DNA from: a virus | DNA: 58,431 nucleotides | Direction: 5' to 3' (one strand) | IMG/VR virus record: IMGVR_UViG_3300021425_000043 | Span: 1-58,431 of that record | In this document: positions 3,440 to 45,626 of the stretch, piece after piece | Position numbering within the stretch: the stretch's first letter is position 1 | Layout: every line of letters begins with the position of its first letter | Translations under genes and position numbers: made by a program | The notes under the pieces: generated by a model | Seen by the model: the letters and a program-made list of their open reading frames with translations, nothing else | What the model was told of the DNA's origin: nothing | Databases searched by the model: none

Positions 3440-3967
3440 CTACTTGGAGATTGTTCTCCAAGTAATGTTGTAGCGTGTTTTGTTTTCCAGCGGTGTTGAT
3501 ACGCCGTGCGCGAGTTGGTTAAAGAACTCGCGATTGCCAATGATTAGCTCTCCGTTGTGGAGAGTAATCTTGTCGGCGGTGTAATCAAACACTGCTGGGG
3601 CTCCGAGGCTTAAAGATGCGATAGAGCCTTTGAGCTCTTTTTCGTCGTCTTTGTGTTTGTTGAGCTTTTGTCCTGGTTTATATTGATTAATAAGAACGTG
3701 GTTAAAGCTTTCGCCTGTTGTTTTGTTGAGCCAAGTAGTCAAAAGCTTAACTTTTGGTGTGTAGCCGGTGGCTATATGTGAACGGCCAGAGTAAATGTAG
3801 TTTAATCCGCGTTCGCCAAGCCAAGCTGTGCCTCTGCCGAATTCTTGTGTGAAGCTGAGCTGTTGCAGTTCAACAAGCAGAGGAGAAGCAAACTCAGGCT
3901 TGAGGGTCTGAGTTGCTTTTCGTAGTTGTGCTCCTGTGTTGTTAGTGTAAAGTGTTTCAAAATTCAT
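3440..3967 (-). CDS. alkB: AlkB-like Fe(II)/2-oxoglutarate dioxygenase
   Basis: This 175-residue protein has the full AlkB active-site set. The iron ligands are H105 and D107 (in NKHKDDE) and H154 (QLAHGVS). The 2-oxoglutarate/substrate motif RYNITWR supplies R165 and R171, matching the family RxNxTxR. AlkB enzymes remove alkyl damage from DNA or RNA bases by oxidative demethylation. Here it would act in the cytoplasm to protect phage DNA, or possibly host RNA. Length is close to compact phage and bacterial AlkBs. It is translated from AAGGAGAAACAA-ATG, 10 nt after the 57-residue coiled-coil gene, in a two-gene unit under hairpin element B. Confidence 0.93.
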   Translation of the reverse strand: MNFETLYTNNTGAQLRKATQTLKPEFASPLLVELQQLSFTQEFGRGTAWLGERGLNYIYSGRSHIATGYTPKVKLLTTWLNKTTGESFNHVLINQYKPGQKLNKHKDDEKELKGSIASLSLGAPAVFDYTADKITLHNGELIIGNREFFNQLAHGVSTPLENKTRYNITWRTISK

Positions 3968-39396: not shown

Positions 39397-39818
39397 TGTA
39401 CGAATACAGTTGCGGTATAACTAGGATCGTGGACGGAGATACTGTCGACGCTGAGATAGACTTAGGCTTTGACATTGTATATAAGTCTCGTGTCAGACTA
39501 TACGGAATCGACACGCCAGAATCACGAACACGTGATTTAGATGAAAAAGCTAGAGGTAAACTAGCAGCAAAGTTTTTATCCGATGCTATCTTGCATGCAG
39601 ATACATTAGTCATACAAACAAAACTAGATAAGAAAGGGAAGTTCGGTAGAGTTCTAGGCGTTATCGTTGCAGATGGCGTAGATCTAAACCAAGCGCTTAT
39701 AGACAATCATCTTGCTGTTGCCTACACAGGCCAGAGTAAAGATGATATAGAGGCACAACATTTAGCAAACAAGGAGGAGCTGTTAAAGCTTGGAAAATAT
39801 GAAGAAATTATTAACTAA
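39396..39818 (+). CDS. thermonuclease-like protein (SNase family)
   Basis: The 140-residue protein matches the staphylococcal-nuclease fold. RIVDGDTV supplies calcium ligand D15, and VRLYGIDTPE supplies R34, D39, T40 and E42, equivalent to SNase R35, D40, T41 and E43. KKGKFGRVLG supplies the second catalytic Arg (~85), and DLNQALIDNHLAV closes the fold. It should cleave DNA or RNA with Ca2+. No signal peptide is present, so it acts in the cytoplasm, for example in host nucleic-acid turnover. The end overlaps the holin-like gene. Confidence 0.9.
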   Translation: MYEYSCGITRIVDGDTVDAEIDLGFDIVYKSRVRLYGIDTPESRTRDLDEKARGKLAAKFLSDAILHADTLVIQTKLDKKGKFGRVLGVIVADGVDLNQALIDNHLAVAYTGQSKDDIEAQHLANKEELLKLGKYEEIIN

Positions 39819-40269
39819 CATAGTAGGGAGCGTAGCTCCAACATTAGGTGCGGCACTCGGTGGCCCTTTAGGTGGCATGGCAGGTGACGTTATATCCAAA
39901 GTATTAGGTGTAGAAAACAATCCAGCATCATTAGAAAAAGCAATTGCACAAGCAACACCAGAACAATTGATGGAAATTAAAAAAGCAGAGATAGAGTTCG
40001 AAGCTAAGATGAAAGAGCTGGATGTAGACATATACAAAATAGAAGCTGAAGAGAAGAAAGACGCACGTAAACACTTTTCTAAAGACTGGACTGCTAGGAT
40101 TATAGGTATAGCCATGGTTGGTGGTTTTCTTGGTTATATCTTTCTTGTAACGCTACAACCACCAGAGCAAAATAGTGAGGCTCTGATTAATTTAGTGCTA
40201 GGTTACTTGGGTGGCCTAGCGTCTGCAGTAATATCATTTTATTTCGGAGCCTCCAATAAACAAGAATGA
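39790..40269 (+). CDS. holin-like membrane protein, 159 aa
   Basis: I use TTG 39790 because GGAGG lies 12 nt upstream; the ATG at 39799 (MKKLLTNIVG) is the alternative. Residues ~8-40 are a Gly/Ala-rich amphipathic segment (VAPTLGAALGGPLGGMAGDV). Next comes a charged helix (AEIEFEAKMKELDVDIYKIE), then two membrane segments (IIGIAMVGGFLGYIFLVTL; LVLGYLGGLASAVISFYFGA). This matches the three-segment holin-type proteins common in marine phages. It would permeabilise the inner membrane for the GH24 lysozyme. Confidence 0.75.
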   Translation: MENMKKLLTNIVGSVAPTLGAALGGPLGGMAGDVISKVLGVENNPASLEKAIAQATPEQLMEIKKAEIEFEAKMKELDVDIYKIEAEEKKDARKHFSKDWTARIIGIAMVGGFLGYIFLVTLQPPEQNSEALINLVLGYLGGLASAVISFYFGASNKQE

Positions 40270-40616
40270 CCGAAGCGATTACGGTAATCCAAGAAGTTGG
40301 TTTTCCTATAGCAGCTGCAGCTGGTTTAGGTTGGTTTATTTATAAACTAATCATGCGTATTGTGGACGGTATGGAGACAAAACTTGATACCGTAGATGAA
40401 AAAGTAGAATCTCAAATAGCAGCCATAGAAGAACGACTAGGCACAAAACTTGACTCACAGCATGGTATTTTAGTAGCCTTAATAGACAGGGTGCGTAGTT
40501 TAGATAACGAAATTATAAGACAAGACACTTTGATAAAGACTATTCTTGGCGTACCTCAACTAATAGATAGCAATAAAATTGCTAAGGCGGATAGAGATGA
40601 CCAAAGAAAAGATTAA
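40266..40616 (+). CDS. BhlA-like holin / membrane protein, 116 aa
   Basis: The ATGA overlap couples it to the previous gene. One N-terminal membrane segment (residues ~12-33, GFPIAAAAGLGWFIYKLIM) is followed by a long coiled coil (METKLDTVDEKVESQIAAIE ... LVALIDRVRSLDNEI). This topology fits BhlA/UviB-type bacteriocin-release holins. It could instead be a lysis regulator for the first holin. Its last 20 nt overlap csgF. Confidence 0.65.
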   Translation: MTEAITVIQEVGFPIAAAAGLGWFIYKLIMRIVDGMETKLDTVDEKVESQIAAIEERLGTKLDSQHGILVALIDRVRSLDNEIIRQDTLIKTILGVPQLIDSNKIAKADRDDQRKD

Positions 40617-41139
40617 AAGAAAAAGAGGCAGACCCTCTAACGCAGAACTAAAGCGTAGAAAAGAAGAAAGGGAAAAGGATCTTATCCTAAGGGTATTGCT
40701 TGCGATAGGGGTTTTTCTAATTGGTGCTATAGTTTCACAAAACTTATTAGCAGACCAAATGACCCATAAGTTTAAGTCTCCTTCTTTTAGTGGAGAAAAT
40801 ACTTCTAGTCACTACCTAACAATAGATAATGTTGAATACACTAGAAAAATGTCTATAAAAGCAGAATTAAAAGCTTTGCAAGACCAAATAAAAAGAGACA
40901 AAGAGAACACAACCCTTGCTAGATTTGTCCGTAATTTAGAGTCTAGGATTTATGCACAGTTGTCTAGACAACTTGTAGAAGCTTTGTTTGGAGAGACTCC
41001 AAGCGATAATGGTACAATTGAGTTAGAAGGTAATACAATTACCTATAGTGTAGTAGACGGTATAATAACTCTAACTGTGGTGGACTCGGACGGCAATGAA
41101 ACAATTATTCAAATTCCTATCGGTAGTTTTACTTTCTAG
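40597..41139 (+). CDS. csgF: CsgF-like curli assembly protein
   Basis: I start at ATG 40597 (MTKEKIKRKRGRPSN); an earlier in-frame start lies inside the previous gene. Residues 1-29 are strongly basic and include an AT-hook-like RGRP. Residues 30-51 are a hydrophobic membrane/signal segment (LILRVLLAIGVFLIGAIV). From residue 54 the chain aligns with mature CsgF: MTHKFKSPSFSGENTSSHYL, as in the E. coli segment that plugs CsgG. A helix (ARFVRNLESRIYAQLSRQLV) and the beta domain GTIELEGNTITYSVVDG, then LTVVDSDGNETIIQIP, follow. CsgF couples the pore to extracellular nucleation. The long basic leader is unusual. Confidence 0.85.
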   Translation: MTKEKIKRKRGRPSNAELKRRKEEREKDLILRVLLAIGVFLIGAIVSQNLLADQMTHKFKSPSFSGENTSSHYLTIDNVEYTRKMSIKAELKALQDQIKRDKENTTLARFVRNLESRIYAQLSRQLVEALFGETPSDNGTIELEGNTITYSVVDGIITLTVVDSDGNETIIQIPIGSFTF

Positions 41140-41956
41140 TTGTGCGTCCTTAATATTTGACCCGATAGAAAATAACATAGGCCCAATCCAAAAAATAGAA
41201 AGGGCAGAGGTAGAAACACTCGCAGTATCTAATCTTTCTTCTGTTGGAGTGCCAACACGTAAACCAGTCATTGCAGTTTATCCTACAAGTTTTACAGACC
41301 AAACAGGACAAAGGTTAAGCAATTCAAGCTACGCTTCTTTCTCTACTGCAATAACTCAACTACCAAGTGCCTATTTAATAAGAGCTTTGCATAAAGCAGG
41401 CTCGGATCACGGGGGGTTTTTTACTGTAGTTGAAAGGGTAGGTTTAGATAACTTAACTAAAGAACGCCAAATTATAAGAAGCACTAGAGAAAAAGAAGAT
41501 AATGCCAAGGAGCTAGGGGCCCTTTTGTTCGCAGGTTTAATTATAGAAGGGGGTGTGATAGGATATGAGAGTAACGTTACGTCTGGCGGTGCTGGAGCAC
41601 GCTATTTAGGCTTAGGTGCAACCAAAGCGTATAGAAGAGATTCAGTAACAGTACAACTTAGGTTGGTATCTGTTACAACGGGAAAAGTTTTGCTAGAGAC
41701 ACTGGTGACTAAAACAATACTAAGTGCCTCATTAAGTAACGATGTTTTTCGATTTATTTCTGATAATACAGAGTTAGTCGAAATAGAAAGTGGTGTTGTA
41801 AGAAACGAATCCGGAGGATTGGCTTTAAGGGCCGCCATAGAAACAGCAGTTCTGCAGATAATTAAGGAGGGTACAGAAGCAGGCTATTGGAGTATACATG
41901 AAAAATATAAAACTATTGATTGCGATGCTGATTGTGTCGCCTCTGTACGCGGCTGA
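41096..41956 (+). CDS. csgG: CsgG-like outer-membrane curli secretion channel lipoprotein
   Basis: 286 residues. The lipobox LLSSC makes C16 the mature lipidated residue. The body aligns throughout with E. coli CsgG: FTDQTGQ, ASFSTAITQLPSAYLIRAL, VVERVGLDNLTKERQIIRST, and the highly conserved EGGVIGYESNVTSGGAGARY, then LRLVSVTTGKVL, TKTILSASL and VFRFI. CsgG forms a nonameric 36-strand pore. The constriction Phe (F56) is kept in SFSTA, while the N55 position is Ser and the Y51 alignment shifts. The start lies 44 nt inside csgF, so translation is coupled. Bacterial csgE, csgB and csgD are absent. Confidence 0.95.
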   Translation: MKQLFKFLSVVLLSSCASLIFDPIENNIGPIQKIERAEVETLAVSNLSSVGVPTRKPVIAVYPTSFTDQTGQRLSNSSYASFSTAITQLPSAYLIRALHKAGSDHGGFFTVVERVGLDNLTKERQIIRSTREKEDNAKELGALLFAGLIIEGGVIGYESNVTSGGAGARYLGLGATKAYRRDSVTVQLRLVSVTTGKVLLETLVTKTILSASLSNDVFRFISDNTELVEIESGVVRNESGGLALRAAIETAVLQIIKEGTEAGYWSIHEKYKTIDCDADCVASVRG

Positions 41957-42608
41957 TAACGAAATATATGTAGATCAAGCCGGTGCTACTTTAAACCTAG
42001 ACTTAGAACAACTTGGTTCTGGTAATATTATAGGCGGGCTTAATGCTGCTGCTGGTAGTATGACTGCTCTTGACCTTGATGGCGCTACTATGACTTTAGA
42101 CATAAACCAAATAGGTGGTTCTAATACATTTTTAGGGGATATTTTAGCTGACAATTTTACAGGTTTTTTTGAGTTTGATGGAGACAGTAATGACTTTACA
42201 ATCCAAGTAGACCCTACTAATACCTATGGAGCTGACGGTAGTAATCTTAATGTAGACGTTACAGGAGACAGCAACGACTTTACGTTAAACGTAGGGACAA
42301 CAGCTTTAACTGGTAATTTAGACTTAGATTGGATTATAAATGGTTCTAGTAATACATTTGATTTTGATATTAACTACGATGGTGCTACATCTTATGTAGA
42401 CGTAGATGGTGATTCTAACAATGTTACATTTGATGGTTCAGGCTATGCAGGCGGATATTTTTACCTTGACCAAACAGGTAATAGTAGAACATTTAATATT
42501 CAACAACTGAGTACCCAAGATAATGACTGGCTTAAAATTATATCTAACGGTAATGGTGGTACTGTTTGCGTCATTCAAAACGACCAAGGCACAGGCACAA
42601 GCTGTTAA
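41898..42608 (+). CDS. secreted curlin-like repeat protein
   Basis: The 236-residue protein has a signal peptide (MKNIKLLIAMLIVSPLYA, cleavage before ADNE). It then has seven degenerate curlin-like strand-turn units: QAGATLNLDLEQLGSGN, INQIGGSNTF, DGDSNDFTIQV, TGDSNDFTLNV, NGSSNTFDFDI, DGDSNNVTFD and DQTGNSRTFNIQQ. The G-x-S-N turn and alternating hydrophobic strands mirror CsgA/CsgB QxGxxN repeats, though acidic Asp often replaces Gln. Two Cys sit near the C-terminus (C224, C236). It begins 59 nt inside csgG, so it is the likely cargo of the phage CsgG pore. It may form an amyloid-like fibre or coat. Confidence 0.75.
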   Translation: MKNIKLLIAMLIVSPLYAADNEIYVDQAGATLNLDLEQLGSGNIIGGLNAAAGSMTALDLDGATMTLDINQIGGSNTFLGDILADNFTGFFEFDGDSNDFTIQVDPTNTYGADGSNLNVDVTGDSNDFTLNVGTTALTGNLDLDWIINGSSNTFDFDINYDGATSYVDVDGDSNNVTFDGSGYAGGYFYLDQTGNSRTFNIQQLSTQDNDWLKIISNGNGGTVCVIQNDQGTGTSC

Positions 42609-43632
42609 TATTGGAGATATTTCTGAACTAAAAGGGACTGCTAGCGTCTTAAGAGACCAACCTTACGGCGCTGAATTAGATTTTGACATTCAACAAATGG
42701 ATGACGTTCGTACAACTAACGGACGTGTAGGCATAACATTCCTGGACAATTCTATTGTACGACTGACGGAACATTCTAAACTTGTCATAACTGAATACAT
42801 TTACGACCCTGACCCTTCAAAAGGTAAAATGGCCATGACGTTTGCTAGCGGTACGGCTAGGTTTATAAGCAGTAAACTAGGCAAGATTGATAAAAAAAAC
42901 ATAAAACTTTCTACACCTACAGCTGACATTGCAATTCGTGGGACTGATTTTACGTGTACCGTAGACGAACTTGGACGTTCGCTTATTATTTTACTACCTG
43001 ATGCTAACGGTTTATCTAGTGGCGAAATACTTGTTACAACCGCTGCAGGCACAGTTACTTTAAACAGACCTTATGAAGCTACGACTGTTAATGTATTTGA
43101 AAACGCACCTAGTAAACCTGTTATATTAGATTTAACTTTAGACATAATAGACAACATGTTGATTGTTAGTCCTCCGGACGAATCAAAGTTATCCACAGAA
43201 TCATCCACAACGTCCGGAAATACTGGGGCAATTTTAGATATAGACTATTTAGAGTTTGAGGATTTAGAGTTTGATTATCTAGCAGAAGACTCGCTTGAAT
43301 TTAGTGAGCTTGATATAAATTATTTAGATGTTAATTTTTTTGAAGATTTATTAGAAGTTATAGAAGAATTAGATACTTTGGGAGACCAGGCATTGACTAC
43401 AGGTTCAGTGCTGCAGGGCACAACCTTTGGGCAAGATTTAGTTACGCAAATTACAACTTTTAAACAAGATGAAAGCATTATTTTAGAAAGAGCAGTAACG
43501 CAAGCTACTAAGTTGACCCTAAACATATCGCAGGGCTATACTATAATATTACTGCAGGATGGTAAAACACAACAAGTGTTAATAAATGGTGGAGGTGACT
43601 CTACTATAAGGATTACACAGGGGTCAGGATGA
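42523..43632 (+). CDS. secreted FecR-domain protein
   Basis: 369 residues with a signal peptide (MTGLKLYLTVMVVLFASFKTTKAQA). A FecR domain spans ~30-180 with its markers: RTTNGRVGITFLDNSIVRL, TEHSKLVITEY, GTARFISSK and STPTADIAIRGTDF. The second half is acidic (DIDYLEFEDLEFDYLAEDSL) and ends with a small beta motif (LNISQGYTIILLQDG). FecR domains sense or transmit signals in the periplasm. In bacteria, single FecR-domain proteins are often encoded next to CHASE2 adenylate cyclases, exactly as here. It starts 86 nt inside the curlin-like gene; M11 (42553) is an alternative start. Confidence 0.85.
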   Translation: MTGLKLYLTVMVVLFASFKTTKAQAQAVNIGDISELKGTASVLRDQPYGAELDFDIQQMDDVRTTNGRVGITFLDNSIVRLTEHSKLVITEYIYDPDPSKGKMAMTFASGTARFISSKLGKIDKKNIKLSTPTADIAIRGTDFTCTVDELGRSLIILLPDANGLSSGEILVTTAAGTVTLNRPYEATTVNVFENAPSKPVILDLTLDIIDNMLIVSPPDESKLSTESSTTSGNTGAILDIDYLEFEDLEFDYLAEDSLEFSELDINYLDVNFFEDLLEVIEELDTLGDQALTTGSVLQGTTFGQDLVTQITTFKQDESIILERAVTQATKLTLNISQGYTIILLQDGKTQQVLINGGGDSTIRITQGSG

Positions 43633-45380
43633 AGAAATGGATTTCGTTATTAGCAATACCAATACTAGCTATACCACTGCTGTTTAACTGGCAGGCACTA
43701 GAGATACTTAAATTAAAAACATTTGATGCTTTCGTACAAAAACAAGATCCATCTGGCTGGTTTGTAACTTTAGATATAACAGAAGAAGATGTAGCAACTG
43801 CAGGTGGGTGGCCGTACCCGCGTCAGGACTTGGCACGCATTCATTTAGATTTATTAGAAGCAGGAGCTTTAGGTGTAGGTTGGGTTGTTGCTTTTCCACA
43901 AGCAGATAGGTTTGGTGGCGACCAAGCATTTGGAGATGCTTTGTTACAAGGTGCGAGTGTTATTGCTACTTTTGAAGGTGGGGCTTCGTATGCACCTACC
44001 ACAGGCACAGTCATACTAGGAGATGGTATACCTATAGAAGCTATAAAAGCTCAAGGTGTTATTGGAAATGTACCCGTGCTAGCAGAGTCAGCTTACCAGG
44101 GGCTGGCAGTTGCACGAACTGACGTAGATAATTTAGTTAGACGTTTACCCTTACTATTACAAACACCTGATGGTTGGACGCCGTCTTTTGGTATACAAGT
44201 AATGAAGATGATTGGTGGCGCAGATACGTACATTATTAAAGGGCAGCAAGGGCAGATAGAAGAACTGACTGTACCTAACTACGCACAAATACCTGTAGAT
44301 AGCATTGGGCGTCGTTGGGTGTCTTGGGTTGATACGCCAAGCACAAGCCTAGAAGAGATGGATGTACGAGATAAATTTGTGTTTATAGGCGTGAGTGCAA
44401 AAGGTGTTATGCCTCAAATAGCTACGCCAGTTGGATTGTTGTACCCACATGAGATACAAGCTGCACTAGCTGAGAGTATGACAATGGATGTACCAGCTAT
44501 ACCAGGCAATGCTCTATTATATGAATTACTTATATTAGTTACAGTACTAACCTTAGCCATAGTTATAATACGTACATTAGGGCTCGTCGGAACTTTAGTA
44601 GGGACCGTGGGCCTCGTATCGTTAACCGCGGTCGGAGGTTGGTACTTAATTGCATCGAATATACTTATAGATGTTACTTATAGTATATTATCAGCCATAC
44701 TTATATCTATTCAAGAATTTTATTTACGCTTTAACGAACAATTTAAACTTAGACAATTAATAAAGAAACAGTTTGAACACTACTTAGATCCGAAACAAGT
44801 TGCACGATTACAAAACAACCCTGGCTTATTACAATTAGGTGGAGAAAAACGTATATGTACATTCTTGTTCACAGACGTCAGAGGGTTCACGAATCTGTCC
44901 GAAAAATTATCTCCTGAAGAAGTAACAGAAATAATGAATAAAGTTCTTACTGTACAAGTTACATGTATTCAAGCACATGGTGGTATGGTAGATAAGTTTA
45001 TAGGCGACGCATGTATGGCCATCTTTAATGCCCCCCTATCTATAGATGAACATGAAAAACGTGCAGTCGCCTGTGCTCAGGATATGCGTACGGCTATTCG
45101 CATGCTGCAAAAAGAATTGTCCGAACCAATTGCAATAGGCATAGGTGTTAATACAGGCGAAGCAGTAATAGGTAACATGGGCTCAGATACTAGGTTTGAT
45201 TATTCAGCAATAGGAGATGCGGTAAATACGGCTGCACGATTAGAGAGTGCAACTAAAGAAGCTGGAGTAGATATTTTAATTGGAGAAACTACTGCTAAGA
45301 AGATGTTGTATGATCTGACACTATTAGCTCCTATAAAAGTAAAAGGTAAAGCAAAACCTTTAAAGGTGTATACTATATAA
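43629..45380 (+). CDS. CHASE2-domain class III adenylate/guanylate cyclase
   Basis: 583 residues. One N-terminal membrane helix (4-20) is followed by a CHASE2 extracytoplasmic sensor (~25-290: WFVTLDITEEDVATAGGWPY, RHLPLLL-like RRLPLLLQT). Three membrane helices (~298-362) and a catalytic domain (~405-583) follow. Catalytic residues are complete: metal-binding D416 (TDVRGFT) and D460 (FIGDA), purine-specifying K456 (VDKF) with S526 at the Thr/Asp position (DYSAIGD), and transition-state N533 and R537 (VNTAARLE). It should convert ATP to cAMP at the inner membrane; Ser instead of Thr leaves slight doubt on base specificity. ATGA overlap with the FecR gene implies a sensor pair. Such a cyclase is highly unusual for a phage. 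Confidence 0.92.
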   Translation: MKKWISLLAIPILAIPLLFNWQALEILKLKTFDAFVQKQDPSGWFVTLDITEEDVATAGGWPYPRQDLARIHLDLLEAGALGVGWVVAFPQADRFGGDQAFGDALLQGASVIATFEGGASYAPTTGTVILGDGIPIEAIKAQGVIGNVPVLAESAYQGLAVARTDVDNLVRRLPLLLQTPDGWTPSFGIQVMKMIGGADTYIIKGQQGQIEELTVPNYAQIPVDSIGRRWVSWVDTPSTSLEEMDVRDKFVFIGVSAKGVMPQIATPVGLLYPHEIQAALAESMTMDVPAIPGNALLYELLILVTVLTLAIVIIRTLGLVGTLVGTVGLVSLTAVGGWYLIASNILIDVTYSILSAILISIQEFYLRFNEQFKLRQLIKKQFEHYLDPKQVARLQNNPGLLQLGGEKRICTFLFTDVRGFTNLSEKLSPEEVTEIMNKVLTVQVTCIQAHGGMVDKFIGDACMAIFNAPLSIDEHEKRAVACAQDMRTAIRMLQKELSEPIAIGIGVNTGEAVIGNMGSDTRFDYSAIGDAVNTAARLESATKEAGVDILIGETTAKKMLYDLTLLAPIKVKGKAKPLKVYTI

Positions 45381-45626
45381 ATGCCAAGAAACTATAAATT
45401 AGAATACGAAAGATATCACAAGTCACCTGAGCAAAAGAAACGTCGTGCGGCACGAAATAAAATACGCAGAGAGCTATTAAGTAGTGGTAGAGTTAGAAAA
45501 GGAAGTCGTGTTGATGTACATCATAGAGATGGAAACCCAGAAAATAACTCTCCAGGCAACATTGTTTTGCAAGATAGGTCAAAAAACCGTTCTTTTGCCA
45601 GAAATAGCAAATCTGGGAAAAAATGA
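45381..45626 (+). CDS. HNH-like small protein, 81 aa
   Basis: It begins MPRNYKLEYERYHKSPEQKK immediately after the cyclase stop. The core VDVHHRDGNPENNSPGNIVL, then QDRSKNRSFARN, is the HNH/zinc-finger-like core (HHRDGNxxNNxxxNIVLQDRSxNR) seen in phage HNH nucleases and in a small phage protein family near packaging genes. The first His pair could bind metal; the final HNH His is missing after NIVL, so catalysis is uncertain. It is the last gene of the rightward block. Confidence 0.7.
   Translation: MPRNYKLEYERYHKSPEQKKRRAARNKIRRELLSSGRVRKGSRVDVHHRDGNPENNSPGNIVLQDRSKNRSFARNSKSGKK

Follow-up and report, generated by a model that had tools for sequence, protein, structure and literature searches.

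The window analysed here is the whole of a 58,431-nucleotide record of a marine phage from IMG/VR (IMGVR_UViG_3300021425_000043), and it carries a cassette of five overlapping genes encoding CsgF, the secretion pore CsgG, a repeat protein of the curlin family, a secreted protein with a FecR domain and, last, a class III adenylate cyclase with a CHASE2 domain. We read this cassette, with a probability of about 57%, as a horizontally spread, minimal type VIII (curli) secretion system that would secrete a curlin-like protein late in infection, combined with a sensor leading from FecR and CHASE2 to cyclic AMP (cAMP). A survey of phage genomes found the same five-gene order, together with the overlaps, in about 150 viral loci, and substitution among relatives is strongly purifying (omega 0.03-0.18).

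Gene content of the cassette

All five open reading frames that an earlier reading of the sequence alone had placed at 40597-45380 were found there, overlapping by 44 nt (CsgF/CsgG), 59 nt (CsgG/curlin), 86 nt (curlin/FecR) and 4 nt (FecR/cyclase). The genes run in the order SNase, Up151, Up116, CsgF, CsgG, curlin, FecR, cyclase, HNH, with the following features:

39814..40269, + strand: Up151, 151 aa, two predicted transmembrane segments, weak holin/spanin likeness
40266..40616, + strand: Up116, membrane and coiled-coil protein
40597..41139, + strand: CsgF (Pfam CsgF, alignment, PDB 6l7a)
41096..41956, + strand: CsgG, outer-membrane lipoprotein secretion pore (Pfam, PDB CsgG)
41898..42608, + strand: 236-aa secreted repeat protein of the curlin family, with signal peptide
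42523..43632, + strand: secreted FecR-domain protein, 369 aa (Pfam FecR, alignment)
43629..45380, + strand: CHASE2 class III adenylate cyclase (Pfam CHASE2 and Guanylate_cyc, catalytic residues)
45381..45626, + strand: HNH endonuclease-like gene bordering the cassette, kept in empty and swapped sites
40617..45380, + strand: segment between Up116 and HNH, with about 50 bp in its place in contig L357

Packing upstream is equally tight (overlaps of 5 nt for SNase/Up151, 4 nt for Up151/Up116 and 20 nt for Up116/CsgF), and the HNH gene starts 1 nt past the cyclase stop. Profile searches supported the content proposed earlier, namely a pore, CsgF, a curlin-like cargo, a secreted FecR protein and an intact cyclase, with Pfam matches that all exceed the curated cut-offs (CsgF 2.7e-16, CsgG 8.5e-49, FecR 3.3e-11, CHASE2 5.8e-29, Guanylate_cyc 2.5e-22). 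Four of the five proteins fall into PHROGs phage families of unknown function, a hint that cassette proteins were already known in phages. Promoter-like sites showed no excess over shuffles, and a search of Rfam gave no match.

CsgG aligned over its full length with Escherichia coli CsgG (PDB, E 3e-67), and both the lipobox (LSSC) and the constriction phenylalanine, aligned with E. coli F56, are kept. CsgF consists of a basic N-terminal tail, a signal or transmembrane segment and a mature N-terminus, DQMTHKFKSPSFSG, that matches the pore-inserting peptide of E. coli CsgF and retains the F-P-F-G marks of the peptide lining the E. coli pore; the comparison with PDB 6l7a gave E 0.0077. The window thus encodes two hallmarks of type VIII secretion, a CsgG with lipobox and domain and a CsgF with an N-terminal pore peptide. 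The very basic tail of CsgF is AT-hook-like (KRKRGRPSNAE; Pfam AT_hook E 0.07, below cut-off), and in the window's subgroup the CsgF start falls inside the end of Up116 (window 40597-40680).

The third hallmark, a curlin-repeat cargo, is clear at the level of the family and weak for the window protein alone. Among 22 homologues of the third gene, 15 matched Curlin_rpt at E <= 1 (best 7.9e-8), as did all seven members of a second alignment of further curlin-like proteins, mostly products of a second curlin gene, and the two alignments matched each other in hhalign at 4.5e-18. The family profile also matched a solved CsgA-type curlin (PDB 8c50) at 1.7e-6. A profile built from 20 phage homologues (A8), searched with thresholds up to E 0.1, found matches in eight of 13 bacterial csg loci (best 1e-14), in none of 34 cyclase control loci and in none of 2,600 shuffles of the matched reading frames, while a wider, iterated curlin profile matched in all 13 csg loci. 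The window protein has six repeat marks of the form G-x-[SGT]-N at intervals of 22-33 aa, against a maximum of five and a mean of 0.6 in 5,000 shuffles. Its AlphaFold model is confident (predicted TM-score 0.82) and has matches (E 2.6e-5, TM 0.66/0.69) among viral models that bear the name 'Curlin associated'. A curlin gene accompanies CsgG in nearly all complete loci.

The FecR-domain protein comprises a signal peptide, a FecR domain at residues 60-150 and a long acidic C-terminal part. Pfam detected PF04773 behind the signal peptide and no sigma-binding N-terminal FecR domain, so the name 'iron regulator' is not supported; PF04773 also occurs in secreted proteins unrelated to iron, such as the NCBIfam surface adhesin Lsa33 and LipL45. 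A curlin-like tail on this protein (end motif NGGGxSxIxIxQ) was considered and is not claimed, the profile comparison giving a probability of 1.6%.

The cyclase has an N-terminal transmembrane segment, a periplasmic CHASE2 domain, more transmembrane segments and a cytoplasmic catalytic domain. The earlier claim that all catalytic residues are in place was borne out in the window (D416, K456, D460, D530, N533, R537) and beyond it, since 132 of 133 phage cyclases retain both metal aspartates, the specificity lysine and the transition-state asparagine and arginine; at the other specificity position, 123 of the 133 have aspartate. In class III cyclases a Lys/Asp specificity pair points to an adenylate cyclase. 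The protein therefore combines CHASE2 with the metal Asp pair, the Lys/Asp pair and the Asn/Arg pair of a CHASE2 class III adenylate cyclase, and it is plausible from these residues that it would raise cAMP in the host.

Insertion site and phage lineage

To survey the insertion site independently of the cassette, contigs were collected with the window's helicase as the query, and 41 KPP25-type contigs had 4 kb or more of sequence past this gene. In 36 of them the same site is occupied by the cassette, recognized by its cyclase, its CsgG or both. One contig (L357, 5700-6500) has an empty site, where SNase, Up151 and Up116 (87-93% identical to the window; Up116 93%) are followed by about 50 bp and then HNH. 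The limits of the mobile unit are therefore the stop of Up116 and the start of HNH. Up151, retained there along with Up116, consequently belongs to the backbone and not to the cassette. The remaining four contigs (L337, L338, L363 and L365) carry another module at this position, made up of genes for large putative secreted proteins and a membrane/coiled-coil protein, and the site therefore accepts alternative modules. In L338 these are a 374-aa putative secreted protein rich in Asn and Thr, a putative secreted protein of about 740 aa whose middle part is very acidic and for which no Pfam family passed the cut-off, and a membrane/coiled-coil protein whose XhlA-like matches are weak.

These sites bear on the proposal, made for the phage Melnitz (PMC9004378), that CsgG and CsgF help to time lysis by acting as a pinholin or as a gated pore in the outer membrane, with a secondary role for the curlin and signalling genes. 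The position of the cassette directly after a pair of small membrane proteins that weakly resemble holins or spanins would agree with such a role. However, the cassette is absent or replaced in five of the 41 sister contigs, and is thus not needed for lysis in the KPP25-type lineage; Up151 and Up116 stay behind in the empty site, other phages carry the cassette in different gene neighbourhoods, and the curlin gene, present with CsgG in so many loci, is itself under purifying selection. We consider a lysis-timing pore unlikely. Presence, absence and exchange at one site fit a surface cargo better than a fixed role in lysis, and surface remodelling is the reading that agrees best with the swap site.

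By its genes, the window belongs to a podovirus of the Kochitakasuvirus (KPP25) type, in which the large terminase subunit (TerL), portal, major head protein and replication block occur in shared order; the phage context assumed by the sequence-only reading was likewise recovered, a podovirus-type head and late module lying alongside the cassette. Identities to Pseudomonas phage KPP25 (Kochitakasuvirus) and Aeromonas phage phiA008, which have related head, terminase and replication genes, are 41-51% for TerL, 34-40% for the portal, 45-52% for the head protein and 28-37% for replication genes. Unlike the window, KPP25 and phiA008 showed no csg genes in the stretches compared. TerL is more distant from that of HTVC023P (35%). 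An HTVC023P-type head was considered and set aside, the portal and head protein matching the KPP25-type phrog_156 and phrog_334, although no direct search with the HTVC023P portal was made. No tRNA that might hint at a host was found. A 2OG-Fe(II) oxygenase gene lies at window 3440-3967, in the early/replication-strand region (Pfam 1.6e-15).

Among 49 other IMG/VR contigs with the cassette, four have a KPP25-type portal and head protein, six an HTVC023P-type portal, and seven another kind of portal, about 720 aa long and showing weak likeness only. In the CsgG tree, whose bootstrap is not fully settled and most of whose rows have no phage label, all phage sequences form one clade separate from the 13 sampled bacterial ones; the KPP25-type sequences lie within a single ten-row group that has support, and sequences from other phage types are scattered over several groups, as would be expected if the cassette moves between phages.

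The sequence-only reading had named a chimeric assembly of host DNA as one result that would overturn it. The cassette genes are of bacterial type and several bacterial metagenome-assembled genomes (MAGs) hold the cassette, as such a chimera would predict, yet five contigs, the window and the four others, join a KPP25-type portal and head protein to the cassette, and G009 and G026, the two studied along their whole length, proved collinear with the window. The GC content of the cassette (0.386) is close to that of the remainder of the window (0.391), and phage CsgG stands apart from the bacterial sequences in the tree. The CsgG genome scan itself returned mostly MAG contigs with a phage-type cassette and not host operons, and these contigs are probably binned phage DNA. 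Taken together, a chimera or host DNA is hardly credible as an explanation of the cassette. The phage-type cassette was seen in MAG contigs L166, L167, L168, L169, L170, L171, L172 and L175, from MAGs named Neomarinimicrobiota, Maricaulis, Pelagibacter, Flavobacteriaceae and Rhodobacteraceae; binned phage DNA of this kind would wrongly suggest that these hosts have curli genes themselves.

Published relatives and bacterial counterparts

The linked FecR and cyclase genes had been taken as new in a phage, a claim that fails because the cassette is already published and is carried by the isolates HTVC008M and Melnitz. Wittmers et al. (2022) described this gene set, with both FecR and adenylate cyclase, from HTVC023P-type podoviruses and, on reanalysis, from pelagimyophages (PMC9599517), and myophage versions were described by Zaragoza-Solas et al. 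(2020; PMC7029224) and Buchholz et al. (2022; PMC9004378). The pelagiphage type VIII secretion module (PMC9599517) is homologous throughout to the window in CsgF, CsgG, the CsgA/B-like protein, FecR and adenylate cyclase, and has one or two small genes ahead, as in the window, and an optional second curlin gene. In contrast, the window is of KPP25 type, lacks a second curlin gene, and belongs to a lineage with a documented empty site and a swapped module. We found no earlier report of the cassette in the KPP25-type (Kochitakasuvirus) lineage, and a literature search for HTVC023P together with KPP25 returned nothing.

One or two copies of Up116 precede csgF in most loci, and Up116 is, judged by position, probably the gene named histidine kinase in PMC9599517. 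No kinase domain (HisKA/HATPase) was found in the eight Up116 members scanned.

The curli operons of HTVC008M (KC465899; a Pelagibacter phage) and Melnitz (MZ577097; a Methylophilales phage) contain the five genes in the same order as the window, at identities of 45-48% for CsgG, 37-38% for FecR and 31-32% for the cyclase. Unlike the window, both phages are Kyanoviridae, have a second curlin gene between FecR and cyclase, and show no CsgF/CsgG overlap as annotated. The unnamed HTVC008M gene between FecR and cyclase (L002 9438-10760) encodes curlin repeats and a PA14 domain. A csgG match at 41% identity was also seen in a 1.5-kb record of Salmonella phage S.Kent 1-2-1 (OR851715.1), possibly host DNA.

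CsgF was found in six of 385 alphaproteobacterial and six of 274 gammaproteobacterial genomes sampled. Bacterial csg operons of these two classes resemble the window in having curlin genes near CsgG and, in most cases, CsgF, but differ from the phage cassette in that none of 13 loci had a FecR, CHASE2 cyclase or Up116 homologue nearby within the DNA fetched. FecR genes directly beside a CHASE2 cyclase were instead observed away from curli genes, in eight bacterial loci: seven flagged by script among the 34 cyclase loci and L261, where the two overlap on the opposite strand. In Polaromonas (L232) the two genes overlap as they do in the phage cassette. Related links have been published for Sinorhizobium meliloti, where the FecR gene SMc02177 adjoins that of CyaD1, a receptor adenylate cyclase with a CHASE2 domain (PMC5498481), and for a Burkholderia biofilm operon (BiofilmReg), where FecR accompanies a CHASE2 histidine kinase (PMC5192318). 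In both, a FecR-domain gene lies next to a CHASE2 signalling protein, as in the cassette, with no curli linkage, and the Burkholderia partner is a histidine kinase in contrast to the phage cyclase. The FecR-cyclase link is therefore not new in bacteria either. Since such pairs occur away from curli genes and none was found in the 13 csg loci, the phage cassette has the look of two bacterial modules fused into one, the first for secretion and the second for FecR/CHASE2 signalling.

Proposed function and its alternatives

In the mechanism we favour, CsgG would form an outer-membrane pore in the infected cell, lined or capped by CsgF, and the curlin-like protein would be exported by Sec and then through CsgG to the cell surface. 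The cassette closes the block of structural genes, which suggests that this happens late in infection. The secreted FecR-domain protein may act as a periplasmic partner that reports the state of the envelope or of the secretion pore to CHASE2, and the cytoplasmic cyclase domain would then make cAMP to be read by host receptors; FecR and cyclase are read as a two-gene sensor because bacterial pairs exist apart from curli genes. The benefit might be an altered cell surface that, for example, lets sibling cells aggregate or excludes rival phages.

Several observations weigh against this mechanism. Neither the CsgE gate expected of a type VIII system nor a cNMP-binding protein was found in the 11 phage records searched, so that gate and cAMP reader would both have to be those of the host; CsgE is described as non-essential (PMC7029224) and is missing from other phage modules (PMC9599517). 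The third gene of the window alone gave no Pfam curlin match, being recognized through family profiles. Its model found nothing significant in the PDB (best E 0.098), with CsgA fibrils at rank 27 (TM 0.12/0.19). The protein is accordingly assigned to the curlin family at the level of sequence rather than of fibril fold. The FecR structure prediction was poor, with a mean predicted local distance difference test score of 47.5. Furthermore, no clumping was seen with Melnitz by Buchholz et al. (PMC9004378), and in S. meliloti the FecR gene beside cyaD1 is dispensable for signal perception (PMC5498481).

That no CsgE was found in those records would also agree with an import route, as suggested in PMC7029224 and PMC9599517, in which an ungated CsgG pore admits nutrients or cofactors and FecR signals the iron state. 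This leaves CsgF and the conserved curlin gene unexplained, and the FecR protein offers only a signal peptide and a domain shared with secreted proteins that have no connection to iron; we regard import as quite improbable. A superinfection barrier, in which secretion proceeds in the same way and the main benefit is the masking of receptors from other phages instead of aggregation or signalling, is a possible alternative of lower probability than the mechanism favoured here. Exchange for another putative-secreted module in sister phages is what would be expected of diversifying surface modifiers, but the barrier would be compatible with the favoured mechanism and differ from it in benefit only. 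Fairly unlikely is an extended version in which the late block of this lineage would end in a swap site for modules of secreted proteins that coat infected cells, and the curli cassette would act as a feedback device, with FecR sensing curlin export and cAMP from the cyclase reprogramming the host during the coating.

These results place the curli module of ocean phages in one more phage lineage than we found reported, and the empty site and its swapped alternative define the mobile unit as exactly csgF to cyclase. They also call into question two published names, histidine kinase and iron regulator. Finally, the module can be divided into a secretion part and a FecR/CHASE2 signalling part, both of them bacterial, which makes its function testable piece by piece.

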